Origin: Zunongwangia pacifica
GTDB lineage: Bacteria; Bacteroidota; Bacteroidia; Flavobacteriales; Flavobacteriaceae
Direction: 5' to 3'
NCBI RefSeq assembly: GCF_023499215.1
Contig: NZ_JAKHSK010000030.1
Location: 1 to 59,604, forward strand
Length of the DNA stretch: 59,604 nucleotides
In this document: piece after piece, positions 24,764-55,177 of the stretch
How positions within the stretch are numbered: the stretch's first letter is position 1
Layout of the letters: each line of letters starts with the position of its first letter
Translations under genes and position numbers: made by a program
Notes under the pieces: generated by a model
Told to the model about the DNA's origin: nothing
Databases searched by the model: none
Seen by the model: the letters and a program-made list of their open reading frames with translations, nothing else

Positions 24764-24845
24764 AAATGTTAGGGGTTTGGTTAAAATGTGGTTGAAATTA
24801 TAAAAAGCAGAAAATTAAGAAAAAATTAATGAAAGCTTAATATTT

Positions 24846-25919
24846 TTAAAAAGCATTTTCTGTGTCTTCATAATAATTAACAAGAAGAGCAACCACATAA
24901 CTATAACTACGTAAGCCATCCTGTTGATTGTTTGCCATAAGAAAGCGGTTGTAAAACGCCTGAAATAAAGGCTCGAATGGGTTTTGATGCTGAAGCCAGA
25001 AATCTTCGACTTCCTGATAGTTTTTTAGAATCCCGGGATGTAATTTTTTAATTAATTCTTCGCCCATTTCTTTATCTCTTCTAAAGAGTTCTGCCAAACA
25101 ATAGCGAAGTGCGAAAGTGAATCCGCAATATCTAAAATAAGGATCGGGATGATTAATGGTCACCAGGCAGGCGATAAAGTTGGCTTCATTCTCTTTGGCA
25201 AAACCTAACTGGTGCCCAACTTCATGGCTTGCTGTAGTGGGTATTTTAAAGGGGAGAATAGTAGTGTTTACCTGAGCTTCTGCAGTAAGCGGATTTAAAT
25301 ATCCGTTAAATCCCATGTAGGTTAGCGGCCAGCTAAATAACGATCTTTTTAAACTTCGTCCTGTGTAAGTTAACTCTGGGAAATCTTTTTTTATATGATC
25401 GTAACCCTGAACGGTAACGTCAAAAATTTCTGCTTTAGAATAGGGAATATCAACTTTTATAGTGTCATTTTGTACAATTTCAAGATGAATTTTATTGGAT
25501 TCTTTAATTAGCTTTTCTGTAAGCAAAACAAGCTCTTCTTTAGAATATTCGTCATCAATATCTAAAGATTGGTGAAGGGGCAAACGGTAATAATTAAACC
25601 CCCAAAAAAGATGAAAACAAAAATAGACGATAGAAAGAGTAGCAAACATTTCGGCCATCCATTCCTTTGGTTTTTTAAAGCGTGTTTTAATCCTTTTTAA
25701 TAGCCATCGGATGATAAAGATGATAAGAATCGTATATAACAGGTCTCCAAACGAAAATGAAAGAATACCCAGTGACCATCGCATCATTCTAGAGATATAT
25801 GGATAAATCCCACGACTGTACCAACTTTCTATCAGCCATTCGTTCCCTGCTAATAGTTTAATGAGAATGATTTGTACAGGCAGTAAAATAGCCAGAATTA
25901 TTTGAGATTTCTTTTTCAC
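24846..25919 (-). CDS. DUF3810 membrane protein with zincin-like HExxH
   Basis: A 357-residue protein with three hydrophobic segments at about 8-25, 48-72 and 92-108, then a soluble C-terminal domain. Residues 232-236 are HEVGH, followed by QLGFAKENEANFIA, whose Glu near 243-245 is placed as a third zinc ligand in gluzincin-like proteases. This matches the DUF3810 family. The function is not established to my knowledge; the motif suggests a membrane-anchored metallopeptidase. It is separated from the amidohydrolase pair by 82 bp on the same strand. Confidence 0.88.
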   Translation of the reverse strand: MKKKSQIILAILLPVQIILIKLLAGNEWLIESWYSRGIYPYISRMMRWSLGILSFSFGDLLYTILIIFIIRWLLKRIKTRFKKPKEWMAEMFATLSIVYFCFHLFWGFNYYRLPLHQSLDIDDEYSKEELVLLTEKLIKESNKIHLEIVQNDTIKVDIPYSKAEIFDVTVQGYDHIKKDFPELTYTGRSLKRSLFSWPLTYMGFNGYLNPLTAEAQVNTTILPFKIPTTASHEVGHQLGFAKENEANFIACLVTINHPDPYFRYCGFTFALRYCLAELFRRDKEMGEELIKKLHPGILKNYQEVEDFWLQHQNPFEPLFQAFYNRFLMANNQQDGLRSYSYVVALLVNYYEDTENAF

Positions 25920-26074
25920 AATTTCAAAAATAGGACTTTTATATGGAGAATATAGTACTACTTTTTAGGTATATGCTAATTTAATTGAACCATAAGGGAA
26001 TATAGTAGCAGTTTAAATTTGGGATAGTTTATAATATTGATATGAGAATTTAACCAATTTAATACTTTTTATGT

Positions 26075-27937
26075 ATGATAAAGCTTAAAAAATTTACTAT
26101 TCTTCTGTTTTTGAATCTTTTGCTTGTGAATTGTTCTTCTGATGAACAGGTTGTTAAAGAAGAGCAACCAGCACCAACAGAAGAAGGAACCGGGGAGCAG
26201 CAGGTCTCCACAGAAGAAGGGCTTTCAATTTACATTCCTAACGAATTTAGTGATATGGATTTTGAAGACCCAGAAAGTACCTGGGCTTATAGTCGAAGCC
26301 GTGAATCTGAACATTTTATTATGTTTTGGGGCAAAGGCTATGGCGATAATGATCCGGGATCTCAAAGCACAGCCTCAAAATATCGTGTAGATATCGATGA
26401 CCTTTTAGCAAAAGCTGAGGACTTTTATGCACTTAATACCGGAGATTTAGGATTCGCAGAAACGGGGACAGGGAATTCGAATTTGAATCAATACAAAATG
26501 ATGATTTTCTTGTATTATCAGGAGGATTGGCTTGCCACGGGATCGGGTTACGATGATACCATTGGTGCTTTATGGATTAGCCCCAATACCGCCCAGCCTG
26601 TAGGGCATACCATCGCACACGAAATAGGACATAGTTTCCAGTATCAGGTGTTTGCAGATCTGGCCAACGGACACGGATTTAGATACGGTTTTGGCGGTAA
26701 TGGAGGGAATGCATTTTGGGAGCAAACAGCCCAATGGCAGGGTTTTCAATCTTATCCAGAACAAGTTTTTGAAACATACGATTTTAGTGAATACATCAAT
26801 AATTATAATAAGCATATTCATCACGAAGATTATAGATATGCGAGCTATTTTATTCACTATTACTGGACCTTTTTGCATGGTCATGATTTTATTGGTCGTT
26901 TATGGAGAGAAGCTCAGGAGCCAGAAGATCCTGTACAGGCTTATATGCGATTAACAGGAATTAGTGTGAGCGAATTTAATGATGAAATTTATGAGGCTGC
27001 TACAAGATTTGTAACCTGGGATTTAGAGCCATTAAGAACTTATGGCGAGGATCATATAGGAGCACAGCATTATAACTATACTACCCAGGATGATGGTAGC
27101 CATATCGTAAGCCCGGATTATGTTCCACAAACTACAGGTTATAATGTAATTCCGCTAAACGTTCCCCAAGCTAATACTGAAGTAAGTGTAGATTTTACAG
27201 GGCTTCCCAATGCAAGTGGGTTTAATAGTGTAGATGCTTCTATAGCGGGTTGGCGTTACGGTTTTGTAGCCTTACAGGAAAACGCAACAAGGGTTTATGG
27301 AACGATGAATCAGGCAAGTCTGGGAAACGCTTCGTTTGTGGTACCCGAAAATACCACGCATCTTTGGTTAGTGGTGACCGGTGCACCAACCGAATATAAA
27401 CCCCATGCCTGGGACGATGATAACAGTAACGATGACCAATGGCCCTATAAAGTTTCTTTTTCTGACACAAATATGTTAGGAGTAGTAGATATTGATGAAG
27501 GGGAAGAGCCACAAGATGTAGATTTTAATTATGATGTTTCTTTTCCTTTAGATAATGAGAATTATACCGGCACTACGGTTTCTTTAAATAAAGAAAAGTT
27601 AGCGAAAGCTTTTTTAATGCAGCCTAAGCAAATCTCAGATGAAATAGGTAACGCTATTATGTTTTATGCAATGAACAGTAACGGAGATTTAATTTCTGAA
27701 ACTACAGCCAATGGATATGGTCACTGGTTCGATGCAGCGGGCGATGTAATAGGCTGGGGCGATTCCGCAAAAGTATATTCAGAATTTGATGAAATCAACT
27801 TTAATTTTGAAATTGGGCAATATCCGGGACATTCTGTTTTAGGAGACACGTATACTATAAAACAGGTGCTGGTATATGAATACGAATCTGGCAAATTTAC
27901 TCAGGCTATGATAACATTTAATATCACGATAGAATAA
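26075..27937 (+). CDS. DUF6055-DUF4859 lipoprotein with zincin motif
   Basis: A 620-residue outer-envelope lipoprotein; lipobox LLVNC with Cys20, then an acidic linker (21-50). Residues 70-330 form a DUF6055-type domain with HTIAHEIGHSFQYQ, giving HEIGH at 182-186, and FWEQTAQWQ with Glu216 as a candidate third zinc ligand. The C-terminal 130 residues (DFNYDVSFPLDN onward) fit DUF4859, a beta-rich carbohydrate-binding-like module, by sequence style. I infer a secreted metallopeptidase acting on a surface or polysaccharide-linked substrate. Followed within 22 bp by the inverted-repeat element. Confidence 0.88.
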   Translation: MIKLKKFTILLFLNLLLVNCSSDEQVVKEEQPAPTEEGTGEQQVSTEEGLSIYIPNEFSDMDFEDPESTWAYSRSRESEHFIMFWGKGYGDNDPGSQSTASKYRVDIDDLLAKAEDFYALNTGDLGFAETGTGNSNLNQYKMMIFLYYQEDWLATGSGYDDTIGALWISPNTAQPVGHTIAHEIGHSFQYQVFADLANGHGFRYGFGGNGGNAFWEQTAQWQGFQSYPEQVFETYDFSEYINNYNKHIHHEDYRYASYFIHYYWTFLHGHDFIGRLWREAQEPEDPVQAYMRLTGISVSEFNDEIYEAATRFVTWDLEPLRTYGEDHIGAQHYNYTTQDDGSHIVSPDYVPQTTGYNVIPLNVPQANTEVSVDFTGLPNASGFNSVDASIAGWRYGFVALQENATRVYGTMNQASLGNASFVVPENTTHLWLVVTGAPTEYKPHAWDDDNSNDDQWPYKVSFSDTNMLGVVDIDEGEEPQDVDFNYDVSFPLDNENYTGTTVSLNKEKLAKAFLMQPKQISDEIGNAIMFYAMNSNGDLISETTANGYGHWFDAAGDVIGWGDSAKVYSEFDEINFNFEIGQYPGHSVLGDTYTIKQVLVYEYESGKFTQAMITFNITIE

Positions 27938-27959
27938 TTTTTTTATTCTAAAAATTGAC

Positions 27960-28088
27960 GAGGCTGTCTAAAAACATCCAAAAACGTCATTCTGAACTTG
28001 TTTCAGAATCTCATCTCATTGATTTAAAAATCGTTATGAGAACCTGAAACAAGTTCAGGTTGACTAAAATTGAGTTTTTAGACAGCCT
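27960..28088 (+). repeat. 129-bp terminal-inverted-repeat element, copy 1
   Basis: This copy is the exact reverse complement of 35588-35716 over 129 bases. Ends AGGCTGTCTAAAAAC and GTTTTTAGACAGCCT form a 15-bp terminal inverted repeat. Inside are three hairpins: 27989-28009 (ATTCTGAA/TTCAGAAT), about 28014-28040 (GATTT/AAATC inside CTCAT/ATGAG) and 28041-28061 (AACCTGAA/TTCAGGTT). It begins 22 bp after a stop codon, so it may also act as a terminator. No clear target duplication. Confidence 0.9.
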
Positions 28089-28156
28089 ATTTAGTTTTCA
28101 TGCTTAAATTAAGATATTATTATAATTCTTGTCTTTAATTCTCAGTTAAATAGCGT

Positions 28157-28164
28157 TATTTTTG
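28157..28164 (+). promoter_or_regulatory. -7 promoter box upstream of pepD
   Basis: TATTTTTG matches TAnnTTTG and ends 23 bp before the ATG of pepD. The nearest TTG (28129-28131) is 25 bp away, longer than the usual spacing of about 19, so only the -7 element is convincing. Confidence 0.45.
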
Positions 28165-28187
28165 AAAATACATCAAAAAATATAAAA

Positions 28188-29648
28188 ATGAATGATGAGA
28201 TAAGGGATTTACAACCCAAAGCACTTTGGAATAACTTTGCCGATTTAAATGCAGTGCCCAGAGCGTCTAAAAAAGAAGAAAAGGTAATCGAGTTTATCAA
28301 AAACTTTGGGGAGCAGTTAGGGCTGGATACTCAGGTTGATGACACTGGTAATGTGGTGATTCGCAAACCGGCAACTCAAGGTTTAGCAGATCGAAAAACG
28401 GTAGTTTTGCAATCCCATTTAGATATGGTGCATCAAAAAAATAACGATACCAAATTCGATTTTGATACACAGGGAATAAAAATGTATGTAGATGGCGACT
28501 GGGTAAAAGCTGAAGGGACCACTCTTGGAGCCGATAATGGTCTTGGTGTTGCTACGATTATGGCTATTTTGCAAAGTGATGATATTGCACATCCTGCGAT
28601 CGAAGCCCTTTTTACCATCGACGAGGAAACAGGCATGACCGGCGCAAAAGGACTTTCTCCAGATTTATTAAATGGCGATATTTTATTGAATCTGGATACC
28701 GAGGAAGATGACGAAATTGGTATAGGCTGTGCCGGTGGTATCGATATTACGGCCTTACGGGAATACGAAGAAGAGAATATTCCAGATAATAGTGTTGGGT
28801 ATAAAATTGTAGTAAAAGGATTGCAGGGCGGACATTCAGGCATGGATATCATCAAAGGTCTGGCAAATGCCAATAAGTTAATGGCCAGATTATTATATAC
28901 GGCTTATCGCGATTTTGGATTACGGGTATCTGAATTACATGGCGGTGGATTACGAAATGCCATTCCGCGTGAAAGTGAAGCTTTTGTAGTTGTTGATAAA
29001 GAAGATACCAACTTTTTTGTACAGCAAATGCTGGTTTGGATAGACGAGATTAAAAAAGAATATGCCAGTCTGGAACCCAATATGGATATTAGCATTTCTG
29101 AAGCTGAAATTAATGGAAAGTTGATGAAGGTTGAAGATCAAATGGAAATTCTAAAAGGGATCGCATCTGCACATAATGGCGTTTATAGAATGAGTCCCGA
29201 TATTGAAGTTTTGGTTGAAGCTTCTAATAATATTGCGAATGTTGTGGTGGCTAATGGAAAAGCTAAGATTAAATGTCTTACAAGATCTTCTGTAGAATCT
29301 TCAAAAAGTGATCTTGCCCATAGTTTACAGGCAAGTTTCGAGCTGGCTAAATTTAAAGTAAAGCAATCTGGTGAATATCCTGGCTGGGCACCAAATCCAG
29401 CGTCAGCAATCTTAAAAGTCTTAGATGAAATTTATCAAAAACAACATGGGGAAAAGGCCAATATCGCTGCCTGCCATGCAGGTTTGGAATGCGGAATTAT
29501 AGGAAATCATTATCCAGAGATGGATATGATCTCTTTTGGCCCTACCATTAAAGGAGCGCACTCTCCCGATGAGAGGGCAAGTATTTATTCGACTCAAAAA
29601 TTTTGGGATTTTACATTAGAGGTCCTAAAAAATATTCCGAAGAAATAA
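28188..29648 (+). CDS. pepD: aminoacyl-histidine dipeptidase (M20)
   Basis: A 486-residue cytoplasmic dipeptidase of the PepD/carnosinase type. The M20 zinc-site motifs are present: LQSHLDMVHQ (first His and following Asp), TTLGADNGLGVA, FTIDEETGMTGA (catalytic Glu with metal Glu), LLNLDTEEDDE, GLQGGHSGMDI and FGPTIKGAHSPDER near the C-terminus. Length matches the family. No signal peptide. It has its own -7 box and a strong terminator at 29677. It is the first gene inside the 7.5-kb segment between the inverted repeats. Confidence 0.95.
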   Translation: MNDEIRDLQPKALWNNFADLNAVPRASKKEEKVIEFIKNFGEQLGLDTQVDDTGNVVIRKPATQGLADRKTVVLQSHLDMVHQKNNDTKFDFDTQGIKMYVDGDWVKAEGTTLGADNGLGVATIMAILQSDDIAHPAIEALFTIDEETGMTGAKGLSPDLLNGDILLNLDTEEDDEIGIGCAGGIDITALREYEEENIPDNSVGYKIVVKGLQGGHSGMDIIKGLANANKLMARLLYTAYRDFGLRVSELHGGGLRNAIPRESEAFVVVDKEDTNFFVQQMLVWIDEIKKEYASLEPNMDISISEAEINGKLMKVEDQMEILKGIASAHNGVYRMSPDIEVLVEASNNIANVVVANGKAKIKCLTRSSVESSKSDLAHSLQASFELAKFKVKQSGEYPGWAPNPASAILKVLDEIYQKQHGEKANIAACHAGLECGIIGNHYPEMDMISFGPTIKGAHSPDERASIYSTQKFWDFTLEVLKNIPKK

Positions 29649-29676
29649 GAATAAATAAAAAGTATCCTATAGATTC

Positions 29677-29703
29677 AAAAACCGCCTTTTCGGGCGGTTT
29701 TTT
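29677..29703 (+). terminator. terminator after pepD
   Basis: AAAACCGCC and GGCGGTTTT form a 9-bp stem with loop TTTTCG and a following T run. Strong rho-independent type signal. Confidence 0.9.
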
Positions 29704-29794
29704 ATGTTTAAATAGAAATAATAAATTTTAGTTTTTTTAGATAAATGAGTGTAATTTTAAGGATATTAACTGGATGTAAAAAAATGATGTAAAA

Positions 29795-30985
29795 TTGGCT
29801 AATATTGATACTTATTCCGATGAATTACTAGCCAGCGCTCAGCAATTTGTATTCGATTTTTTTAATAGTAATTATACTGTTGATCTTTTTTTTCATAATT
29901 ATTCGTATACCGTTGAAATAATTTCTGAAGCTGAAAAATTAGTTAATGCAGAAGACTTATCGCCCACAGATGCTCAATTAGTACTTCTAGCCTGTTGGTT
30001 TCTGAATACCGGCTATGTGAAGAAAGGAAAAAATCCGCTTCAAGAAGCTGTAAATATTGTAACTAATTTTTTAGAAGAGCACCATATTCCGAAGCAACAA
30101 ATAAAGACGGTTACCCATGCCATTTTGGTTTCAGAAAGTGAAGAAAACCTACAATCGATGGTCGATAAAGCCATATTCGATTTAGCGACGGTTTATATCA
30201 CTTTCTCTGATTATCGAGATCGATTGGCATTGCTTGAAGAAGAGCAAAAAAGACTTTCCCATAGCAATGAAAAACAGGATGTGACTAAAAATGCGGTCGA
30301 TTTTCTTGAGAAACGGCATCATTTTCAAACCACCTATGCCATTACTAACTGGCAAATCGGAAAGCAGAAAAACCTGTTGAAATTACTTAAAAAGGCAACT
30401 AAAAATTCAGATGCTAAATTAGAAGAAAAGCAAAAGAAACAACAATCCAAAGAAACCGACAAAGGGGTAAATAATTTATACCGAATTACGCTAAGAAACC
30501 ATATTTCGTTAAGCGAAAATGCTGATCGGAAAGCTCATATTTTACTATCGGTAAATTCGATAATACTTTCTTTGCTGCTGTCGCGACTTTTCCCAAAGCT
30601 CGATAGCCCCTCTAATCAATATTTGTATATTCCTACAGTAATTTTTTTAACTTCAGCAGTTATCGGTATTATTCTATCGGTTATAGCTACGCGACCTCAG
30701 GTAAATTCAGGCAAGTTCAGTAAAAAAGATATTTCAGAAAGGAATAAGAATATTTTATTCTTTGGAAATTTTTATAATATGGATTTTGATGATTTTGAAC
30801 TCGGATTAAGCGAAATCATGAAAGATAAAGATTTAATTTACCATTCATTAACCAGGGATTTATATAATTTAGGGCAGGTAGTGGCTAGAAAATATCAGGT
30901 TTTACGAATTGCATATACCGTTTTTGTAATTGGTATTGTGGTATCTGTAATTGCTTATGCTATCGCTTATAACATAACGTATTAA
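29795..30985 (+). CDS. orphan PycTM (DUF5706) protein with degenerate HD domain
   Basis: A 396-residue membrane protein. The N-terminal part (30-180) looks like an HD phosphohydrolase: FHNYSYTVE and LACWFLNTGY sit where related proteins have HNxxHT and WFHDTGY. The metal-binding HD dyad is L-N here (residues 70-71) and the second His is Tyr38, so the site is probably inactive. A charged linker (195-225) leads to a PycTM region: ENADRKAHILLSVNSIILS, then membrane segments at about 247-263, 279-298 and 371-391. PycTM proteins are effectors of the Pycsar anti-phage system, but no cyclase gene is adjacent. Start is TTG: an in-frame stop lies 18 bp upstream and the next ATG is far inside. Confidence 0.85.
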   Translation: MANIDTYSDELLASAQQFVFDFFNSNYTVDLFFHNYSYTVEIISEAEKLVNAEDLSPTDAQLVLLACWFLNTGYVKKGKNPLQEAVNIVTNFLEEHHIPKQQIKTVTHAILVSESEENLQSMVDKAIFDLATVYITFSDYRDRLALLEEEQKRLSHSNEKQDVTKNAVDFLEKRHHFQTTYAITNWQIGKQKNLLKLLKKATKNSDAKLEEKQKKQQSKETDKGVNNLYRITLRNHISLSENADRKAHILLSVNSIILSLLLSRLFPKLDSPSNQYLYIPTVIFLTSAVIGIILSVIATRPQVNSGKFSKKDISERNKNILFFGNFYNMDFDDFELGLSEIMKDKDLIYHSLTRDLYNLGQVVARKYQVLRIAYTVFVIGIVVSVIAYAIAYNITY

Positions 30986-30990
30986 AAATA

Positions 30991-31022
30991 AAAAGCCGAA
31001 TCAAAAAAATGTCCGGCTTTTA
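30991..31022. terminator. bidirectional terminator
   Basis: AAAAGCCG and CGGCTTTT pair around a 16-nt loop, between the convergent PycTM gene and the cyclophilin-FKBP gene. Works in both directions by A/T flanks. Confidence 0.75.
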
Positions 31023-31045
31023 AAGAATATCGATGATGATCTTTT

Positions 31046-32164
31046 TTATTCCTGAATTTCAGTTAATTTAACTATAAACACAAGATCGGTATTAGGTTTT
31101 ATTGGTCCCATTCCTCTTTCTCCATAAGCCAAATGACTTGGGATATATAAAATAGCTTTATCGCCAATTTTCATTTCCATAATGCCTTCTTTAAATCCTG
31201 CGATCATTGGTGAATCTGGTCCATAAACTAGATTTAGTGGCGCATAGCCACCCTGCATGCTGCGCATCTCGTTAAAAATATCCCATTTCTTAGCTAAATC
31301 TTCTTTGCTGGTGTCGAAGATGCCACCATCTAAAAAGTAACCTTCGTAATCTACACCTACATTTTGCCCAATTTTAGGTTTTGGTCCATCACCTTCTTTA
31401 AGAATGTAAATTCCCAGTCCGCTATCTAAAGTTGTTGCTTCATCCCGATATTTATCGAACATGGCTTTATTTTCAGCTTTTGCCTCTTCAAGTTTTCTGG
31501 CAGCTTCCTCTTCAGCTTCTTTAATTTTCTCAAGCTCTTCTTCAAAAACCTTTGGCGCATCAAATTTTTTGGCCGATTTTCCTTTTCGAATAATTTCAAC
31601 CTCGTTGATAACCACATCTTTTATAGGTCGATCATTACCATCTATTTCTACTTTTCCTATCGCATCAACTACATCCTGCCCTTTTATTACTTTTCCAAAA
31701 ACGGTATGTCTTCCATCTAAATTTGTAGTAGGAGCAAGGGTAATAAAAAACTGACTTCCGTTAGTTCCCGGGCCGGCATTGGCCATAGAAAGGATCCCTT
31801 TAGAATCATGACTTAAACTATCGATAGTTTCATCTGGGAAACGGTACCCAGGGCCACCACGTCCCGTTCCGGTAGGGTCACCACCCTGAATAACAAAACC
31901 ATCAATTATTCTGTGAAAAATGAGTCCGTCATAAAAATTCTTATTCTTATAAGTACTGTCTACCATGGTGCTGGTTCCTTCAGCAAGAGACACAAAGCTG
32001 GCAACAGTAATTGGGGTTTGCTCGTAATAAAGTTCAGCTATAAAAGGCCCCATAGAGGTATCGAACTTCGCGTACATCCCATCTTCTAAATCTGGGTAGT
32101 CGTCTTTACAGGCTGTAAAGGCCAAAACAATAGCACTTAAAAGTAAAAGGCTAAATTTCTTCAT
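31046..32164 (-). CDS. cyclophilin-FKBP fusion peptidyl-prolyl isomerase lipoprotein
   Basis: A 372-residue protein-folding lipoprotein; lipobox AFTAC with Cys19. Residues about 30-190 are a cyclophilin domain: FHRIIDGFVIQGGDPTGTG, SMANAGPGTNGSQFFI and LDGRHTVFGKVIKG carry the active-site pattern. A Lys/Glu-rich helical linker (195-240) is followed by an FKBP domain (245-372) with GQNVGVDYEGYFLDGGIFDTS and IPSHLAYGERGMGPI. Having both PPIase folds in one chain is a Bacteroidota feature. It lies downstream of gldI with 39 bp between and probably helps fold envelope or secreted proteins. Confidence 0.94.
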   Translation of the reverse strand: MKKFSLLLLSAIVLAFTACKDDYPDLEDGMYAKFDTSMGPFIAELYYEQTPITVASFVSLAEGTSTMVDSTYKNKNFYDGLIFHRIIDGFVIQGGDPTGTGRGGPGYRFPDETIDSLSHDSKGILSMANAGPGTNGSQFFITLAPTTNLDGRHTVFGKVIKGQDVVDAIGKVEIDGNDRPIKDVVINEVEIIRKGKSAKKFDAPKVFEEELEKIKEAEEEAARKLEEAKAENKAMFDKYRDEATTLDSGLGIYILKEGDGPKPKIGQNVGVDYEGYFLDGGIFDTSKEDLAKKWDIFNEMRSMQGGYAPLNLVYGPDSPMIAGFKEGIMEMKIGDKAILYIPSHLAYGERGMGPIKPNTDLVFIVKLTEIQE

Positions 32165-32203
32165 TATGTTGATTTTAATTTTAGGTAAAAATAAATAAGA
32201 TTT

Positions 32204-32758
32204 TTAGTTTATAGTATCCTGTTTTCTGATTGAATGCAGCGTAACGGTGGTTTTTATAGGAATATTGGTCCCAATTTTATCTTTATCGCCGTAATATCCA
32301 AAAGCTTTATAGGATGGGAATAAGAAAGTAACGGTTTCCCCGGCTTTCATTAATTTTAAACCATCCCTTAAACCACTAAATAAATTTTCCTGATCTATCG
32401 CATATTCTTTTGTGGGCTTTTCGCCTTCAGCGTAGATGGTCTGGTCGTTTAGAGTTTTAATATGATAATCGAAATTAACAATATCGCCAAATTCTGGTTT
32501 TATGGTAGAAACCGAATCAGCTACTTTTTTATTATAGAAATACCAAAATCCGCCATTGCTTGCGATATAATTTGTAGTACTATCTTCTGCAATTATATCT
32601 TTTATTAAAGATTCCTCCTGTGCCAGTAGCTTTTTATTTCTGGCCACAGATTCGTTGATATAACTTCCAGAATTTTGACTCACGGGATAGCGAGCTTCTG
32701 GAGATTTACAAGAAATTATTACAGAAATAATTAAGAAACTAAAGATTATTTTTTTCAT
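32204..32758 (-). CDS. gldI: gliding motility-associated FKBP-type PPIase GldI
   Basis: A 184-residue lipoprotein; lipobox VIISC with Cys17. The C-terminal half is FKBP-like: GDIVNFDYHIKTLNDQTIYAE, LRDGLKLMKAGETVTFLFPSYKAFGYYGD and IPIKTTVTLHSI. GldI is a lipoprotein required for gliding in Flavobacterium johnsoniae, thought to help fold Gld proteins. The gene order nrnA-gldI with a 4-bp overlap (32755-32758) supports the assignment. Whether this organism glides cannot be told from this window. Confidence 0.88.
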   Translation of the reverse strand: MKKIIFSFLIISVIISCKSPEARYPVSQNSGSYINESVARNKKLLAQEESLIKDIIAEDSTTNYIASNGGFWYFYNKKVADSVSTIKPEFGDIVNFDYHIKTLNDQTIYAEGEKPTKEYAIDQENLFSGLRDGLKLMKAGETVTFLFPSYKAFGYYGDKDKIGTNIPIKTTVTLHSIRKQDTIN

Positions 32759-33771
32759 GCCTGAAGTTGTTCTTTATATTCAGGAAGCAATCTATTAAAT
32801 TCTACAATCGTATCGTTCATAGATAAATCACTTCTACCACCGGCCGCATTATTATGACCGCCACCATTAAAGTGAGCTCTGGCGAATGTATTTACTGAAA
32901 AATCACCTTTAGAACGGAATGAAATTTTAATAATCCCTTCTTGCTTGTTTTCGATAAAAATAGCTGCAAAAATAATTCCATCTAAAGAAAGTCCGTAATT
33001 TACAAAACCTTCAGTATCACCTTTTTTAAAGTTATGGGCATCTAATTCTTCTTGAGAAATGGTAATATAAGCGGTTCTAAACTGTCGATTGACTTTTAAA
33101 TTTTGAAGCGCAACGCCCAAAAGTTGTAAGCGACTTTCAGAATTGGTATCAAAAACATCCTGATGAATTTTGCTGTTTTTAGCCCCTTTTTCAATAAGAT
33201 CGGCTACCACGCGGTGGGTGTTTGGTGTCGTGCTGGAAAACCGGAATGAACCGGTATCGGTCATAATCCCGGTATACAGACAGCTGGCAATTTCAGGAGT
33301 GATTTTGTTTTTAGCACGAAGCCTTTCTATAAAATGATAGACCATCTCACAGGTAGAGCTCATGCTGGTATCACTATAGGTATAATCGGCATAATCTGCC
33401 GGTTCCTGATGGTGATCGATCATTATAAAAGTGGCTTCACTAGCTTCTAATGCTTGTTGCATATCACCGCAACGAGAAAGATCGTTAAAATCTAAAGTGA
33501 AAATAATCTCTGCTTTTTCAATAATATCGTCTGCCTGTTTTTTATTTTCTTCATATATAATTACCTCGTCGTTGCCAGGTAACCACTTTAGAAAATTTGG
33601 ATATTCATTAGGGGCGATAACATTGGCATTATGTCCTTTGTTTTTTAGGAAATGCATTAAAGCCAATGTGCTTCCCATGGCATCACCGTCTGGGCCTTTG
33701 TGAGGAACAATAACGATATTGTTCGATTTAGATAATTCGGCCGTTATTTCTAAAATATATTGTTCTATCAT
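32755..33771 (-). CDS. nrnA: DHH-family oligoribonuclease/pAp phosphatase NrnA
   Basis: A 338-residue cytoplasmic phosphoesterase. N-terminal DHH domain has HKGPDGDAMGS (24-34), TLDFND (93-98) and MIDHHQEP with the DHH triad at 119-121. The C-terminal DHHA1 domain ends with FNGGGHNNAAGGR. NrnA degrades short RNA oligomers and removes the 3' phosphate of pAp in other bacteria. It overlaps gldI by 4 bp, so it heads the nrnA-gldI-PPIase unit. Confidence 0.95.
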   Translation of the reverse strand: MIEQYILEITAELSKSNNIVIVPHKGPDGDAMGSTLALMHFLKNKGHNANVIAPNEYPNFLKWLPGNDEVIIYEENKKQADDIIEKAEIIFTLDFNDLSRCGDMQQALEASEATFIMIDHHQEPADYADYTYSDTSMSSTCEMVYHFIERLRAKNKITPEIASCLYTGIMTDTGSFRFSSTTPNTHRVVADLIEKGAKNSKIHQDVFDTNSESRLQLLGVALQNLKVNRQFRTAYITISQEELDAHNFKKGDTEGFVNYGLSLDGIIFAAIFIENKQEGIIKISFRSKGDFSVNTFARAHFNGGGHNNAAGGRSDLSMNDTIVEFNRLLPEYKEQLQA

Positions 33772-34025
33772 AAGATTGGTAAAGATACAATTTAATGCCT
33801 CATAGAGGGGTTAATTCCCTCGAAGCTTGGTTTGTGATTTATAAAATGTTTTCCAGTCCTTACTTCGCATATTTGCCCTAAAATTATTAACACCTTTTAA
33901 ATACTGGTATTAGGGTCCAGTAGGGCATCTGCAATCTAAGTTGTTTTTAAAATCATAAAAGTTTAATCCATTATAATTTACCATTACGTTAAACCTATGG
34001 CTTCTTTTAAAAACTTACCCAGGCA
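33772..34025. other. 254-bp divergent intergenic region
   Basis: Lies between nrnA (minus) and the PhoD-like gene (plus). A short perfect inverted repeat GAGGG/CCCTC occurs at 33805-33821. I find no full promoter consensus and no small gene. On the minus strand TATCTTTA near the nrnA start is one base off the -7 consensus. Confidence 0.4.
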
Positions 34026-34037
34026 ATGTGTATTTTT

Positions 34038-35063
34038 ATGAAATATAAAACAACAAAAATGCTTAAAATTTTACGATTTTCTTTTATTTTATTTTTGGTT
34101 GCCTGTAATTCTACTTCTGGGATAGTAGAAAATGAACAACAGGAACAACCGCAAAAAGATTATGACTTCACTATTGTTTTTGGTAGTTGTAACGATCAGG
34201 ATAATGCCCAACCATTATGGGAGCCTATATTAGCTCATCATCCCGATGCTTTTATCTGGGGTGGCGATAATATTTATGCCGATACACCAGATATGGAGAA
34301 GATGAAAGCTATGTATGAATTTCAGAAAAATGTAGAAGGCTATCGAAAACTGGTAAATACTGCTGTAATGTTGGGCACTTGGGACGATCATGATTTTGGT
34401 AAAAATAATGCTGGAAAAGAATGGGAGAAAAAGGCTGAAAGTCAGCAATTATTCCTTGATTTTATGAATGTACCACAGGATGATGTACGTCGTAATCGTG
34501 AAGGTGTTTACTATGCACAGGATTTAATGACTGATGGAAAAACGATAAAAGTTATTTTGCTGGATACCCGCTATTTTAGGGATCCTATAGATGAGGGTAG
34601 GGAAGGTACTATTCTGGGAGATGCACAGTGGGATTGGTTAGAAGATGAATTAAATAGTAGTACTGCCGATTATCATATTATTATGAGTAGTATACAAGTG
34701 CTAAGCAGGCAGCATCGTTTTGAAAAATGGGCGAATTTTCCGGAAGATCGGCAACATTTACTTGATTTAATTGTGAGTTCAGGAATTAAAAAACCGATTA
34801 TAATTAGCGGAGATCGTCATATTTCAGAATTCTCTAAAATGGATATTGAAGGTTTGGGAGCTCCACTTTATGATTTCACCTCTAGCGGAATGACGCACGT
34901 TTATGAAGATTTTGATGGTGAGCCTAACAGATATCGTGAAGGTGACGTGGTTTTTCAGTTGAGTTTTGGTGTTTTAAACTTTGATTTTGAAAATGAGATC
35001 GTTAATATGCAAATGCGAGGTGTTGAAAATGCGCTTTTGCAAGAAACCAGCGTGAAATTTTAG
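34038..35063 (+). CDS. PhoD-like phosphatase lipoprotein
   Basis: A 341-residue alkaline phosphatase D family metallophosphoesterase. The lipobox FLVAC has Cys at about residue 23. Metal-binding motifs: VFGSCNDQD, FIWGGDNIYADT, GTWDDHDFGKNN and ISGDRHISEFS, followed by YDFTSSGMTH. These match the PhoD-type phosphatases, which act on phosphomonoesters or diesters outside the cytoplasm. Starts at 34026, 34038 and 34059 are all in frame; I prefer 34038 because it gives a Lys-rich signal-peptide start. It lies 78 bp before ndk, but ndk has its own promoter. Confidence 0.9.
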   Translation: MKYKTTKMLKILRFSFILFLVACNSTSGIVENEQQEQPQKDYDFTIVFGSCNDQDNAQPLWEPILAHHPDAFIWGGDNIYADTPDMEKMKAMYEFQKNVEGYRKLVNTAVMLGTWDDHDFGKNNAGKEWEKKAESQQLFLDFMNVPQDDVRRNREGVYYAQDLMTDGKTIKVILLDTRYFRDPIDEGREGTILGDAQWDWLEDELNSSTADYHIIMSSIQVLSRQHRFEKWANFPEDRQHLLDLIVSSGIKKPIIISGDRHISEFSKMDIEGLGAPLYDFTSSGMTHVYEDFDGEPNRYREGDVVFQLSFGVLNFDFENEIVNMQMRGVENALLQETSVKF

Positions 35064-35089
35064 AAAGTTGATATAAAGTTTTAATAACC

Positions 35090-35119
35090 TTGTATTTGGA
35101 AGAGAATTGGTTATTTTTG
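35090..35119 (+). promoter_or_regulatory. consensus Bacteroidota promoter of ndk
   Basis: TTG at 35090-35092, a spacer of exactly 19 bp, then TATTTTTG at 35112-35119. This matches TTG-N19-TAnnTTTG. Transcription would begin about 7 bp further on, giving a leader of roughly 15 nt before the ATG at 35142. Confidence 0.85.
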
Positions 35120-35141
35120 CTGAAAATTTAAAAAACACGAA

Positions 35142-35561
35142 ATGGCAGGAAACAGAACTTTCACCATGATTAAGCCTGATGCTGTAGAAAAGGGGCATAT
35201 TGGTGCAATTTTAGATCAGATCAATGCTTCAGGTTTTAGAATCGTAGCCATGAAGTTAACGCAAATGACAACAGCAGATGCAGAGACTTTTTACGCGGTT
35301 CATAAAGAACGTCCGTTCTTTGGAGAATTGGTAGAATTTATGACTAGAGGTCCAATCGTTGCCGCAATCTTAGAAAAAGAAAACGCAGTTGAAGATTTTA
35401 GAACGTTAATTGGTGCAACAAACCCTGAAGATGCTGCTGAAGGTACTATCAGAAAAAAATATGCTTCTTCTGTAGGAGAGAATGCAGTTCACGGTAGTGA
35501 CAGCGATGAGAATGCTGCTATCGAAGGTGCATTTCATTTTGCAGGAAGAGAAATGTTCTAA
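35142..35561 (+). CDS. ndk: nucleoside-diphosphate kinase
   Basis: Transfers the terminal phosphate from ATP to nucleoside diphosphates through a phospho-histidine. The 139 residues match the family size. Motifs: [17 protein letters not shown] at the start, [23 protein letters not shown] in the middle, and [15 protein letters not shown], where the His in the VHGSDS loop is the phosphorylated residue. A perfect promoter lies upstream, and the second inverted-repeat copy follows 26 bp after the stop. Confidence 0.97.
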
Positions 35562-35587
35562 GAACATTTTTAATAAAACAAAGGAAG

Positions 35588-35716
35588 AGGCTGTCTAAAA
35601 ACTCAATTTTAGTCAACCTGAACTTGTTTCAGGTTCTCATAACGATTTTTAAATCAATGAGATGAGATTCTGAAACAAGTTCAGAATGACGTTTTTGGAT
35701 GTTTTTAGACAGCCTC
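35588..35716 (-). repeat. 129-bp terminal-inverted-repeat element, copy 2
   Basis: Exact reverse complement of 27960-28088. With flanking bases the terminal repeats extend to 16 bp (GAGGCTGTCTAAAAAC and GTTTTTAGACAGCCTC), and a T run follows on the right, so this copy looks like a working terminator for ndk. Internal hairpins are the same as in copy 1. Confidence 0.9.
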
Positions 35717-35784
35717 TTTTTTATGCCCTTTAAAGAAGTTTCTCTTTTCAATTAGTGTTTCTCAATTTTAAATGCTTATTATGA

Positions 35785-35820
35785 AAAAAGGGCTAGACTT
35801 TAATAAATCTAACCCTTTTC
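35785..35820 (-). terminator. terminator of the leu operon
   Basis: On the minus strand AAAAGGGTTAGA and TCTAGCCCTTTT pair with one mismatch around a 10-nt loop and are followed by T residues. It lies about 80 bp after the leuB stop. Confidence 0.75.
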
Positions 35821-35897
35821 CTAAATAAACTTTAAACAATTTTAGAGTCGTATGGCTTAACCCGTTTTTAAATATAACTAAGACTACAAACGCTAAA

Positions 35898-37010
35898 CTA
35901 GATAATGGTCATTTGACCAAAATTTAGATTTTCGTCATTGATATTATTTTCAGACTCACTAATTAAGCCTTCTAAGAAGTCTCCAACTTTTTCAGTACTG
36001 TAGGGATTATCTTTATTAATATCCTCGGTACATACATTTACTTTTATACTTGTAGCCACTGCTTTTCTAATCACATCACCTTCTTCAACAAGGCCAAAAT
36101 GATCCAGTAGCATTGCTGCGGAAAGGATGGATGCTACGGGATTGGCAATTCCTTTACCGGTAGCTTGTGGATAAGAGCCGTGAATAGGTTCGAACATGGC
36201 ATTAGCGCCACCAACTGAAGCTGAAGCTAATAAACCAATACTTCCGCCAATCACACTGGCTTCATCAGAGATAATGTCCCCAAACATATTTTCAGTAAGA
36301 ATCACATCAAATTGCTTAGGATTTAAGATCATTTGCATGGCAGCATTATCTATAAATAAGAAATCAAGTTCTACATCCTTATATTCTTCAGCAACTTTCT
36401 TCACGGTTTTTCTCCAAAGACGGGAAGTTTCCAAAACATTCGCTTTATCAACCAGCGTTAATTTCTTACGGCGCTGTTGTGCTGCTTTAAACGCTAAATG
36501 TGCTATTCTTTCGATTTCTTCTACAGAATAGGTACATACATCTGTAGCACTTTGTCCATCTTCGCTCTGGCTTTTTTCACCAAAATAAATTCCGCCAGTT
36601 AACTCTCTAAAAATCGTTAAATCTGCTCCCTGAATTCTTTCTGGTCTCAGCGGGGATTGATCGATAAGTTTAGGATAAGTGGTTACAGGACGGATATTGG
36701 CATAAAGACCTAACTCTTTTCTTAGTTTTAGTAATCCTTGTTCTGGTCGTACTTTAGCATCTGGATTGTTGTCATATTTAGGGTGACCAATCGCACCAAA
36801 AAGAACAGCATCAGATTTTTTACAAAGATCTAAAGTAGCTTCAGGAAGTGGATTATCCAGTAAATCTATTGCAGCGGCACCTACAATCGCTTCTTCAAAT
36901 TCAAATTCATGATCAAAACGATCGGCGATAGCTTTAAGTATTTTGATGGATTGCTGAGTAATTTCCGGTCCAATCCCATCTCCGGCTAATACGGCTATTT
37001 TAAGTTTCAT
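35898..37010 (-). CDS. leuB: 3-isopropylmalate dehydrogenase
   Basis: Oxidises and decarboxylates 3-isopropylmalate with NAD to 2-oxoisocaproate, third step of leucine synthesis. The 370-residue length is normal. Visible signatures: AVLAGDGIGPEIT at the start, FRELTGGIYFGEKS with the substrate-binding Arg, TLVDKANVLETSRLWRK with the catalytic Lys, DIISDEASVIGGSIGLLASAS and FEPIHGSYPQATGKGIANP. It is last in leuACDB, 33 bp after leuD. Confidence 0.97.
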   Translation of the reverse strand: MKLKIAVLAGDGIGPEITQQSIKILKAIADRFDHEFEFEEAIVGAAAIDLLDNPLPEATLDLCKKSDAVLFGAIGHPKYDNNPDAKVRPEQGLLKLRKELGLYANIRPVTTYPKLIDQSPLRPERIQGADLTIFRELTGGIYFGEKSQSEDGQSATDVCTYSVEEIERIAHLAFKAAQQRRKKLTLVDKANVLETSRLWRKTVKKVAEEYKDVELDFLFIDNAAMQMILNPKQFDVILTENMFGDIISDEASVIGGSIGLLASASVGGANAMFEPIHGSYPQATGKGIANPVASILSAAMLLDHFGLVEEGDVIRKAVATSIKVNVCTEDINKDNPYSTEKVGDFLEGLISESENNINDENLNFGQMTII

Positions 37011-37043
37011 ATTTTTTTCTCTAAAAGTTCTTAGATTCAGTTC

Positions 37044-37658
37044 CTATTCCTGAATCGCTGCTTCACGCATTTGCGTTTGTTTTTCTTCAAATTTCTTAAT
37101 GGCATCTAATTTACTCACTAAAAAATCAATATCATCAAAACCATTAATTAAACAGGTCTTTTTATAAGCATCGATGGCAAAATTCTCGGATTTTCCGCTA
37201 CTTAAAATTTCAATTTTTTGATTTTCAAGATCAATTTTAAAGCTTTCTTTATTGTCTTTTCTTATGGCCAGGAAAAGTTCCTCTAAGAATTCAGGTGAAA
37301 CCTGAACAGGAAGCAAACCATTATTCAACGCATTGCCTTTAAAAATATCGGCAAAATAACTAGAAACGACTACCTTAAACCCATAAGCTTTTAAGGCCCA
37401 TGCAGCATGTTCTCTACTAGAGCCGCAACCAAAGTTATTACCGGCGATTAAAATTTGCCCTGAATATTGATCCTGATTTAAAGAGAAATCCTCTACAGGT
37501 TTTCCATCTTTATCAAAACGCCAGTCTTTAAAAAGATTTTCGCCAAAACCTGCTTTATCTGTTGCCTTTAGGAAACGGGCAGGAATGATCTGATCTGTAT
37601 CTATATTCTCGACCTCTAATGGGACGGCTGTATCTTGTAGTGTGGTGAATTTTTCCAT
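37044..37658 (-). CDS. leuD: 3-isopropylmalate dehydratase small subunit
   Basis: The swivelling subunit of isopropylmalate isomerase, which works with LeuC. Features: [14 protein letters not shown] near the N-terminus, [34 protein letters not shown] in the middle, and NGLLPVQV. The 204 residues are normal. It overlaps the last base of leuC (stop and start share 37658), so translation is coupled and gives matched subunit levels. Confidence 0.97.
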
Positions 37659-39040
37659 TAATTCAAGCTTTTTGTAAAGTCGGTTATTTTTCCGGCTACG
37701 GCGGTTGCTGCGGCGGTTAGCGGGCTGGCTAAGATGGTTCTTGAACCTTGTCCCTGTCTTCCTTCAAAATTTCTATTACTGGTAGAAACGCAATATTCGC
37801 CTTCCGGAATTTTATCATCGTTCATGGCCAGACACGCAGAGCATCCAGGTTGTCTAAGTTTAAATCCTGCTTCTTCAAAAACTTTATCTAAACCTTCTTG
37901 TTGAATTTGAGCGGCAACCTGTCTACTTCCCGGAACGATTAATGCATTTACATTTTCAGCTTTTTTCTTTCCTTTGATATAGCTTGCAGCCATTCTAAAA
38001 TCTTCAATACGGCTATTGGTACAACTGCCAATAAAGATATAATTAATAGGTTTGTCGATTAAACTTTCACCGGGTTTAAAGCCCATATAACTTAATGCTT
38101 TGGCATCACTTTTACCACCTTCAACCGGGATGGAACCCGTAATTTTAATTCCCATTCCAGGATTGGTTCCGTAGGTAATCATTGGTTCGATATCTTCGGC
38201 ATCAAAAGAATATTCCTGGTCAAACTCGGCGCCTTCATCGGTTTTTAAGGTTTCCCAGTACGCTTTTAATTTATCGAATTCTTCTCCTTTGGGTGCAAAT
38301 TCCCTTCCTTCAACATAATCATAAGTGGTTTGGTCTGGCGCTATTAATCCGCCACGAGCTCCCATCTCGATACTCATGTTACAAACCGTCATACGACCTT
38401 CCATCGACATGTTTTCAAAAACATCACCGGCATATTCACAAAAATAACCTGTACCTGAGTTGGTTCCCAGTTTACTGATCACATAAAGAATAACATCTTT
38501 TGGAGTTACTCCCTTTCTTAGATCTCCGTTTACATTTACACGCAGTCTTTTTGGTTTTTCTACTAATAAGCATTGTGAAGCGAAAACCTGAGTTACCTGA
38601 CTGGTACCTATACCAAAAGCAATTGCACCAAAAGCACCATGCGTAGAGGTATGGCTATCGCCACAAACCATTGTTTTTCCTGGTTGGGTAATCCCCAGTT
38701 CAGGAGCCATTACGTGAACAATCCCGTTATAAGGATGTCCTAATCCGTAAAGTGTAATATTATTTTCTTCGCAGTTTTGCGAAAGTTCTTTTAATTGTTT
38801 TCTGGATAGCAGATCCTTAACCGGTAAATGCTGATTTTCTGTTGGTGTGTTATGATCTGCCGTAGCAACGATTTTATTAGGTCTAAAAACAGGGATTTCC
38901 CGCTCTTTTAATTCGTTAAAGGCTTGCGGACTCGTAACTTCATGTATTAAATGCTGGTCGATATACAAAATGTCTGGACCATCAGGAATCGACTCTACCA
39001 CGTGGGCATCCCAAATTTTATCAAAAAGGGTTTTCTTCAT
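37658..39040 (-). CDS. leuC: 3-isopropylmalate dehydratase large subunit
   Basis: Aconitase-family enzyme that interconverts 2- and 3-isopropylmalate with a [4Fe-4S] cluster. The 460-residue protein keeps [37 protein letters not shown] and [12 protein letters not shown], which together supply the three cluster cysteines. It follows leuA after 70 bp, a gap that contains two tandem hairpins, and overlaps leuD by one base. Confidence 0.97.
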
Positions 39041-53277: not shown

Positions 53278-53307
53278 AAAGCCGCTGATTTTTCAGCGGC
53301 TTTTTTT
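53278..53307 (+). terminator. terminator after dnaK
   Basis: AAAGCCGCTGA and TCAGCGGCTTT pair around a TTTT loop and are followed by a T run. It ends immediately before the conserved leader of the next lipoprotein gene. Confidence 0.9.
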
Positions 53308-53309
53308 GT

Positions 53310-53359
53310 ACGCAACCTTTTAGGATTTTTAGCATCTACTTATAAATCAATCAAATGTT
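53310..53359 (+). promoter_or_regulatory. conserved leader motif, copy B
   Basis: ACGCAACC at 53310-53317, a T-rich stretch, AGCATCT and an A-rich run up to the ATG at 53360. The AACC-to-ATG distance is 46 bp, the same as in copy C, and 34 of 46 positions agree between copies B and C. Confidence 0.55.
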
Positions 53360-53710
53360 ATGATCAGAAAACTACCAATTTTAATAGTAGCAATGTTACT
53401 ATTTTCATGTTCAGACGATGATGATTCTAATTGTCCCGGTGGAATAAATGAAACTTGGTTTACTAGTTTTAAATCTGAACTGAACGCTAATTGCGGAACT
53501 GAAGTATCGATTTTTAGAGGTGATTATGAGGGACAGATTGTTTACTATGAATTAATAACTGATCCTACAGTAAATTTTCAAGCAATAATAACATTTTACG
53601 ACTGCAGCGGAAATGTTGTAGCCGAATTAACTGCAAAAGAAAGTAATGCGTACTTAGAAAATGAAGGCCGGGATGATATAAAGGTTTTTACCTGCTCTTC
53701 TTCAGATTAA
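53360..53710 (+). CDS. small lipoprotein, unknown function
   Basis: A 116-residue lipoprotein. Signal peptide MIRKLPILIVAMLLFS precedes Cys17, then DDDDS. The mature protein has Cys in NCPGG, NCGTE, DCSGN and FTCSS, which could form disulphides in the periplasm or outside. It contains RGDYEGQIVYYELITDP but no recognised domain. Starts right after the dnaK terminator and has a leader shared with two other lipoprotein genes. Confidence 0.75.
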   Translation: MIRKLPILIVAMLLFSCSDDDDSNCPGGINETWFTSFKSELNANCGTEVSIFRGDYEGQIVYYELITDPTVNFQAIITFYDCSGNVVAELTAKESNAYLENEGRDDIKVFTCSSSD

Positions 53711-54431: not shown

Positions 54432-54489
54432 GCTTTGAAAAATAATTTTAGATGAGTAAACGTTGATTTTTCAGTGACTTTTTACAGAT

Positions 54490-54535
54490 AACCTCTTTGA
54501 GTTTTCTGCATTTACTTAAAAATTAATTAACTATT
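54490..54535 (+). promoter_or_regulatory. conserved leader motif, copy C
   Basis: AACCT, T-rich stretch, TGCATTTACTTA and an A/T run to the ATG at 54536, ungapped and 74% identical to copy B over 46 bases. The ACGC of copies A and B is GAT here, so the 5' edge is less conserved. Confidence 0.55.
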
Positions 54536-55177
54536 ATGATCAAAAAATTATCAATTTTAGCCTTTACATTTTTCCTGTTTTCTTGTTCAGACGATGATGA
54601 CAACGGAATTAAAGTAAACCTGGATGATTTTGAAGCAATAACCGAAGACTTTCCTTTTGAAGATCTTCATCCTGCAACGAATTTTGATTATTTTGAGTTG
54701 ATAAGAGCAATTGTTAATTCTCCAGAAGTACCAAATAATGAATACATTTTGTCTTCATCAGGGGAATTGTGCTCAGCAGAAACCTGTAAAACCAATTTTG
54801 AGCAAATGACTGCGGATAGAGGTTTTGGACCCGATTGTTTGCCAGGATCATGTTTTAATTATATAAAAACTCAAAAAAACGATCAATTCAGCGTTATTAA
54901 TTCTAAAGAAGGATTAAAAGACTTCTTGGGAACAATAGATACTGCTGGCGACGCGCTATTGTGGGTTCGTACTAATGGTTATTATTGGGACTTAAGCGAT
55001 ATTGCTAACGGAGCGATAAAAGAAACCGAGGATGGATTTGAATTAATCATGTTACAAACGGTGAAATACTGTACACCACTCCAGACCAATAGATTTCATT
55101 TAAAAATAGATTATGATGGTACTATTTCAATTTTGGCAGAAGAGGTTGCAGAATTTGATAAAAATGCCTGTGTTTAA
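54536..55177 (+). CDS. lipoprotein, unknown function
   Basis: A 213-residue lipoprotein; signal peptide MIKKLSILAFTFFLFS ends at Cys17, then DDDDNG. The N-terminal 22 residues closely match the gene at 53360, while the mature parts differ. The mature region has paired Cys (LCSAETC, DCLPGSC, KYC, NAC) and no recognised domain. Leader copy C precedes it. The signal peptide and leader similarity suggest that a secretion and expression cassette was reused in front of unrelated domains. Confidence 0.75.
   Translation: MIKKLSILAFTFFLFSCSDDDDNGIKVNLDDFEAITEDFPFEDLHPATNFDYFELIRAIVNSPEVPNNEYILSSSGELCSAETCKTNFEQMTADRGFGPDCLPGSCFNYIKTQKNDQFSVINSKEGLKDFLGTIDTAGDALLWVRTNGYYWDLSDIANGAIKETEDGFELIMLQTVKYCTPLQTNRFHLKIDYDGTISILAEEVAEFDKNACV

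Follow-up and report, generated by a model that had tools for sequence, protein, structure and literature searches.

The occurrence of two identical inverted repeats around a 7.5-kb segment of the Zunongwangia pacifica genome raises the question of whether this segment is a switch that flips by recombination or whether the repeats reached their places independently. The stretch of DNA analysed here (the window) comprises 59,604 nucleotides of contig NZ_JAKHSK010000030.1. The exact inverted identity described in the initial annotation was reproduced, with 27960-28088 being the reverse complement of 35588-35716 at 129/129 positions, a sequence match far beyond chance. In a repeat search of the window the pair grows to 132 nt at 99% complementarity, its arms separated by 7,493 nt, and it is the sole inverted pair of at least 40 nt reported there (seed 14). 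Both copies do lie after plus-strand stop codons, as had been stated, beginning 22-26 bases past stops that end at 27937 and 35561. We consider it highly probable that both repeats are copies of a non-autonomous IS1182-type miniature inverted-repeat transposable element (MITE) of about 130 bp which replaces terminator stem-loops, and that they represent two independent insertions and no switch. The copies, their parts and the genes bearing them are:

27960..28089, plus strand: element copy A, 130-base unit GAGGC..GCCT[A], 3' of the DUF6055 gene (exact repeat 27960-28088)
35587..35716, minus strand: element copy B, 130-base unit, 3' of ndk (exact repeat 35588-35716)
27960..27974, plus strand: terminal repeat of copy A, GAGGCTGTCTAAAAA
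28075..28088, minus strand: other terminal repeat of copy A, AGGCTGTCTAAAAA on the minus strand
35587..35601, plus strand: terminal repeat of copy B
35702..35716, minus strand: other terminal repeat of copy B
27985..28010, plus strand: CGTC-tagged REP-like unit 1 of copy A, found by pattern (L001)
28040..28065, minus strand: REP-like unit 2 of copy A, head to head with unit 1, tag AGTC
35666..35691, minus strand: REP-like unit 1 of copy B, by identity with copy A
35611..35636, plus strand: REP-like unit 2 of copy B, by identity with copy A
26075..27937, plus strand: DUF6055/DUF4859 gene, its 3' end bearing copy A
35142..35561, plus strand: ndk, its 3' end bearing copy B

The 5.10-Mb genome holds 21 longer matches to the element, and its absence from the rest of the genome, which the initial annotation had named as counting against its reading, is thus not the case. 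On other contigs, two copies match the window pair at 100% over the 129 bases, and three further copies show 95-99% identity over 132-133 bases. Perfect identity had been attributed to recent spread or gene conversion; spread is borne out by the identical copies on other contigs, which also make it unnecessary to invoke gene conversion within the window pair. Random placement of 21 long copies over 5.10 Mb would yield about 0.63 pairs as close as this (210 pairs x 2 x 7.6 kb / 5,096 kb), which makes the proximity of the two window copies unremarkable. The scored copies (n=20) measure 130-163 bp and are short, numerous, bounded by terminal inverted repeats and devoid of coding capacity. Long copies occupy single gene ends, as terminators do: 16 of the 21 lie between convergent ORFs, five between tandem and none between divergent ORFs, against 7 convergent, 36 tandem and 7 divergent among neighbouring ORF pairs of the window (p=8e-7).

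The ends of the element (GAGGCTGTCTAAAAA) match those of a 1.7-kb insertion sequence (IS) in the same genome, the left 15 bases being identical and the right IS end differing by one change. This IS encodes a 510-aa transposase scoring 469 bits against NF033551 (IS1182; cut-off 270). Because of these matching ends, the element is probably best called an IS1182-type MITE. The IS is present as a single copy of its clade, the MITE interior is not derived from it, and it is their ends alone that appear to connect the two. The distribution of close transposases does not follow that of the MITE: matches at 1e-30 occur in 3/20 genomes that carry the element or its core versus 2/20 not listed with the element, a weak co-occurrence. 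No direct repeat was seen at the flanks when filled and empty sites were compared; target duplication is not expected for IS1272-type insertion. Searches of a plasmid collection with the element, of a collection of genome contigs with an exact 28-base pattern and of Rfam with positions 24000-38000 (at gathering score) returned no match.

The core of the MITE consists of two CGTC-tagged REP palindromes placed head to head. Unit 1 has the layout CGTC-ATTCTGAA-CTTGT-TTCAGAAT, and the tag of unit 2 is AGTC in the Z. pacifica genome (G000), while in other genomes many copies have CGTC there. The core agrees with the definition of a CGTC REP dimer (CGTC tag, 8-9 bp stem starting with AT, loop of 4-5 nt, head-to-head arrangement). 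For the unpaired tail the definition asks for a fit to CCA; the units here run on into CTCA. Since this dimer sits between inverted ends, the whole element can, by prediction, fold into one long hairpin.

Evidence on how the element inserts comes from an empty-site comparison of 23 insertions with three congeners. A strong intrinsic terminator is present in at least one congener at 21/23 insertions (in G004 at 19/23), as against 7/44 control gene ends that lack the element and have a homologue in G004 (p=1e-7). All seven control ends with a terminator keep a hairpin in G000. The hairpin of the congeners was found beside the element at none of the 21 sites, with L053 ambiguous in that G000 retains, downstream of the element, a hairpin resembling that of G003 and G001. 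Terminator hairpins occur at the site of copy A in G004, G003 and G001, and relatives also have one at the site of copy B. In the clearest cases, including the IS at C5, flanks align up to the A-tract and resume from the T-tract. The 1.7-kb IS shows the same footprint, with loss of the hairpin stem-loop and no duplication, in one insertion only (L080 compared with L192 and L193). In 20 copies a mean of 5.3 A in the 8 bases before the stem and 6.0 T in the 8 after it was counted; the pattern is weak at copy A, whose T-tract is TTTAGTTT only. The much greater frequency of terminators at insertions than at control ends (21/23 versus 7/44), together with the absence of the congeners' hairpin beside the element (0/21), suggests that the element seems to insert by replacing terminator hairpins, bringing a predicted one of its own.

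At two of the 23 sites, L012 and L018, none of the examined relatives shows a strong terminator. At L015, insertion into the loop or conversion is possible, because relatives already carry a GGCTGTCT stem resembling the end of the element itself. A covariation test for RNA structure (15 copies from 15 genomes) gave only -0.1 kcal/mol, with the double change kept in 6/34 pairs, and so lends no support to selection on RNA structure. Copies in 14 other genomes bear the same ends, and 14 of them lie at eight convergent, six tandem and no divergent positions. An equivalent case was found in another genus, where G089 has the MITE in place of a hairpin present in G295 and retains both flanks.

We propose that the MITE targets the stem-loop of intrinsic terminators 3' of genes. 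The target stem-loop would be lost, most of the preceding A-tract and of the following T-tract would stay, no target duplication would arise, and insertion and hairpin loss would be one event. The inverted ends of the element, placed between the old tracts, would build a new stem expected to terminate transcription. The C5 transposase or a close relative may move the MITE, and the 7.5-kb segment would simply be flanked by two independent insertions. What can be read from sequence in this scheme is the copy number, the shared ends, the position at gene ends, the missing congener hairpin, the IS footprint and one clear case in another genus.

The composition of the core admits another reading, that of a REP/REPIN-type element: a Y1 (RAYT-like) transposase would mobilise the CGTC REP dimer itself, and the outer repeats would be no more than stems of host terminators. 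REP units occur in all 13 of the other genome stretches examined, none of them among end-like sequences, and the L015 terminator of relatives shares its stem with the element ends. However, the ends are constant where congeners show many different stems, an IS without the REP core has the same ends and footprint, and a single Y1_Tnp gene (C30) was found in the genome, its 2.3-kb locus being free of such REPs. Mobilisation by a RAYT was rejected on this last ground, and we regard the reading as very unlikely. Even less likely is entry of the element into the loop of pre-existing GGCTGTCT terminators, with the outer repeats belonging to the target. This would fit L015, where AAAAGGCTGTCTAA..TTAGACAGCCTTTT is found, exactly or nearly, in three congeners, but congeners have other stems at the remaining 20 sites with a strong terminator, the control ends keep their hairpins in G000, and the same ends accompany the copies in the 14 other genomes.

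Recombination between the repeats, flipping the pepD-ndk segment as a switch or structural variant, is a highly improbable explanation that ranks lower again. Inverted repeats of 129 bases are long enough in principle for homologous recombination, the present ones are perfect and lie 7.5 kb apart, and the positions bear out the suggestion that no gene would be broken by an inversion. However, with the DUF3810 gene as reference, homologues of pepD, the PPIase, gldI and nrnA-like genes and ndk are arranged in the same order and orientation in 5/5 congeners, none of which has an insertion at either place; the right flank (leuB-leuC) is also seen in G004 only. Given this shared arrangement, the present orientation is, judged by gene order, ancestral. 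Many equal partner copies exist elsewhere in the genome, the window insertions sit at terminators like other copies, and a pair this close is near what chance provides. The proposed flip finds no support in this comparison of genomes, and an invertible switch was rejected on synteny and copy number. Least credible of all is the spread of host-made bidirectional terminators by gene conversion without transposition, which fits the location and predicted structure but does not account for 129-base copies that are identical although their sites are unlinked and their flanks unrelated, nor for ends common to an IS.

Terminator replacement by a MITE has precedents in its parts. Targeting of hairpins with stem-loop loss has already been published for IS1272, which with TnSha1 belongs to the IS1182 family and comes from staphylococci; these elements share with the system described here an IS1182-family transposase, hairpin targets without sequence consensus, partial stem-loop deletion and no target duplication, and 5/7 sequenced targets were confirmed as terminators (PMC4923244). 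Those are an autonomous IS and a gene-carrying IS, whereas the commonest mover here is a 130-bp REP-core MITE of Bacteroidota whose own ends appear to rebuild a predicted terminator. Published CGTC REPs are similar in their CGTC tag, 8-bp stem from AT, 5-nt loop, head-to-head dimers, position downstream of genes and Bacteroidetes hosts; the 2013 report on them found no associated transposase, and most were free of other repeats (PMC3733652). The dimer here differs in lying inside IS1182-type ends, and the nearest parallel named is that of H. neapolitanus CGTC-1 dimers within a 41-bp palindrome (PMC3733652). The same source names RUP, NEMIS and ERIC as bacterial MITEs (PMC3733652). Bacterial MITEs of this kind likewise are short, ORF-less and hairpin-folding, have terminal repeats and lie beside genes. 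Some of them share terminal repeats with an IS, and they make short target duplications and are not known to remove a target hairpin. Among the open-access papers listed in literature searches, the IS1272 paper was found and no terminator-replacing, IS1182-derived or REP-carrying MITE appeared. The terminator-replacing MITE and its spread among Flavobacteriaceae appear to be new, as does the candidate vehicle that it provides for CGTC REPs.

A broader and more doubtful proposal, to which we lend tentative credence, is that self-compensating IS1182-type MITEs across Flavobacteriaceae land on terminators, delete them and become terminators themselves, also spreading CGTC REP dimers in Bacteroidota. 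If this is true, insertion would be nearly neutral, the terminator set of the host would be gradually rewritten and the question of what moves CGTC REPs, for which a concrete candidate transposase is now on offer, would be answered. In genomes of this kind, long inverted repeats on either side of genes can stem from independent insertions and not from switches, which calls for caution in annotation. Terminators seem to be safe sites for a transposon that returns a terminator-like hairpin, and a single genome offering some 20 insertions for which congeners have empty sites makes transposition-driven evolution of terminators directly testable.

The inverted repeats that bracket the 7.5-kb segment from pepD to ndk are best explained as copies of a terminator-replacing, IS1182-type MITE with a core of CGTC REPs. 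The two 129-base stretches described in the initial annotation as exact reverse complements agree at 129 of 129 positions and form the sole inverted pair of at least 40 nt reported by the repeat search in the window. Folded alone as RNA, each strand gives a single long hairpin (-60.9 and -61.6 kcal/mol). The pair and other features of the window are as follows.

26075-27937: DUF6055/DUF4859 protein, with a weak NF040510 (Svx/AvrXca) match far below the cut-off (58 bits vs 625)
27960-28089, plus strand: copy A, 3' of the DUF6055 gene
29795-30985: PycTM-domain gene (Pycsar effector), within the bracketed segment
35587-35716, minus strand: copy B, 3' of ndk
53303-53424 and 54479-54600: a 122-nt sequence repeated in the same direction at 75% identity, the two 1,176 nt apart

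The element was used as a query against the source genome (G000; 5.10 Mb, 100 contigs), where 77 candidates were found at first and 40 scored. The 63 matches were sorted by hand into 21 longer ones, 17 on the reverse strand which are the same palindromic copies as the longer ones, 3 degraded or partial, and 22 short ones which hit the inner palindrome only, at 19 places. The search for same-genome copies proposed in the initial annotation was therefore positive, with copies on contigs C23 and C2 showing 100% identity over 129 bases. Alignment of 23 places showed constant ends (GAGGCTGTCTAAAAA / TTTTTAGACAGCCTC) enclosing spacers and a core of two palindromes placed head to head, CGTCATTCTGAACTTGTTTCAGAATC and, on the opposite strand, AGTCAACCTGAACTTGTTTCAGGTTC; in some copies one arm also holds additional small palindromes (TTCCGATAGCTATCGGAA; CCTGTCT..CGACAGGCAGG). 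In the 20 copies scored for length and flanks (L020 was not scorable), the distance from GAGGC to GCCTC is 130 bp in 7, 131 bp in 1 and 144-163 bp in 12, and the 8 bases preceding the element contain 5.3 A on average, the 8 following it 6.0 T. The T-tract after copy A is weak (TTTAGTTT). CGTC REP-like units also cluster at spacings of ~185 bp or multiples of that in L266 (C3:49700-51300), there without IS1182-type ends.

A pattern search for the element ends in the same genome led to a 1.7-kb insertion sequence on contig C5 (L080), with ends AAAGAGGCTGTCTAAAAAG and AAAGAGGCTGTCTGAAAAG. Its 510-aa transposase passes the NCBIfam model NF033551 for the IS1182 family (469 bits, cut-off 270) and also matches Pfam DDE_Tnp_1_6, DUF772 and DDE_Tnp_1. 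This is the sole close copy in the genome, the remaining matches being 25-35% identical, and close transposases are scarce (at 1e-30, in 3/20 genomes carrying the element or its core and in 2/20 not listed with it). A second short element of ~95 bp on contig C35 (L082, 2326-2421) has near-identical ends (GAGGCTGCCTAAAAA / TTTTTAGACAGCCT), lacks the REP core and is single-copy by pattern search. More distant IS1182-family elements, in the source genome (L098, L124, L126, L221) and in others (L202, L203, L212), have different ends (TGTCTCAAAAC, GTTGCACAA, CTGTCTAATAAC); the sequences on either side of several of them are partly complementary (CGTCAG..CTGACG, for example) and may be remnants of other hairpin targets; any likeness to attC sites is no more than an impression.

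Copies lie at gene ends. By mechanically called neighbouring ORFs, 16 of the 21 long copies are convergent, 5 tandem and none divergent, vs 7, 36 and 7 among adjacent ORF pairs of the window (Fisher p=8e-7); 14 copies from 14 other family genomes divide into 8, 6 and 0. Empty sites were examined by finding orthologues of the gene ends in three congeners (G001, G003, G004) with a chimeric query and taking the downstream DNA (60 stretches; the copy A and copy B sites come from other, larger ones). The 23 testable insertions comprise 19 long copies (A and B with 17 others), three degraded copies (L028, L030, L053) and the C5 insertion sequence; L011 (no match), L020 (59% match) and the C35 element (L054) fall outside. 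Under one scoring rule, a strong intrinsic terminator lies within 150 bp in at least one congener at 21/23 sites, and in G004 itself at 19/23, vs 7/44 control gene ends in G004 (p=1e-7), the controls being the non-element ends among the 46 of 51 window ORFs left after removal of 5 without a G004 homologue. Restriction to long copies gives 15/19 (p=3e-6). At all 7 terminator-bearing control ends the source genome also has a hairpin and T-tract (scores 12.9-21.0), and in that genome itself 6/28 window gene ends with at least 60 bp to the next ORF have a strong terminator. The congener hairpin was found beside the element at 0/21 sites, a result informative mainly for the right side, since at 16/21 the left flank is shorter than the hairpin and has no space upstream for a complete one.

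At the clearest sites, congener and source flanks agree up to the A-tract and again from the T-tract, which we take to reflect insertion with loss of the terminator hairpin, the element ends now occupying its position. Downstream of a sucB-like gene, G004 has AAAAAGGGAAGC-GTAA-GCTTCCCTTTTTAAATTTTGG and the source genome AAAAAGAGGCTGTCT..IS..AGACAGCCTCTTTTAAGTTTTGG, here with the C5 insertion sequence; downstream of ndk, AAGCTATCC..GGATAGCTTTTTTTATGC in G004 corresponds to GAGGCTGTCT..AGACAGCCTCTTTTTTATGC around copy B. Other sites, like the weak T-tract of copy A, speak against this reading: none of the relatives examined has a strong terminator at L012 or L018; the rule finds one at L008 and L010 in G003 and G001 and none in G004; at L053 a hairpin resembling that of G003/G001 persists in the source genome downstream of the element; and at L015 a GGCTGTCT stem is already present in the three relatives. 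The L018 copy begins within the 3' end of the upstream ORF (~1490-1515), whose final codons, E-A-F-stop, are supplied by the element end, although relatives finish in near-identical residues.

Matches at 1e-10 or better occur in 45/299 family genomes, the source genome included, some covering the REP core only (two candidates were scored per genome). In a second genus, G295 has the hairpin AACGTCTCAA..TTGAGGCGTT downstream of a dksA-like gene, and G089 has the MITE in its stead, with flanks intact on both sides. Downstream of a katG-like gene, the hairpin AAAAGCAGC..GCTGCTTTT is present in G004 and G002, and the MITE lies at that place in G005. At an rsmB-like site in G295, the congener terminator is farther downstream, beyond unmatched sequence, which makes this case ambiguous. 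The labels sucB, dksA, katG and rsmB are presumed identifications from the look of the sequences.

The reading of the bracketed segment as invertible, a potential switch, is unsupported: homologues of DUF3810, pepD, PPIase, gldI, nrnA-like and ndk keep the window order and orientation in 5/5 congeners, and nothing in these comparisons suggests inversion, although it may occur rarely. The DUF6055 and PhoD-like genes are present in 3/5 congener stretches and leuB-leuC in G004 only; the nearest named match of pepD is from Z. mangrovi (95%). The PycTM gene is unmatched in all five syntenic congener stretches and so looks like a lineage-specific gain.

According to PMC4923244, the IS1182-family elements IS1272 and TnSha1 target hairpins, 5/7 of them confirmed terminators, insertion partly deleting the hairpin with duplication absent, a mode termed novel to IS elements. 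CGTC REPs were defined in PMC3733652, which describes a dedicated transposase as apparently lacking, and the word IS1182 is absent from the accessible text of PMC12306157. The open-access literature searched, in the parts available, gave no account of an IS1182-derived MITE replacing terminators or carrying REPs. The mechanism would be the one known from staphylococci (IS1272, TnSha1), with a vehicle, a host group and a likely consequence that would be new relative to that case.
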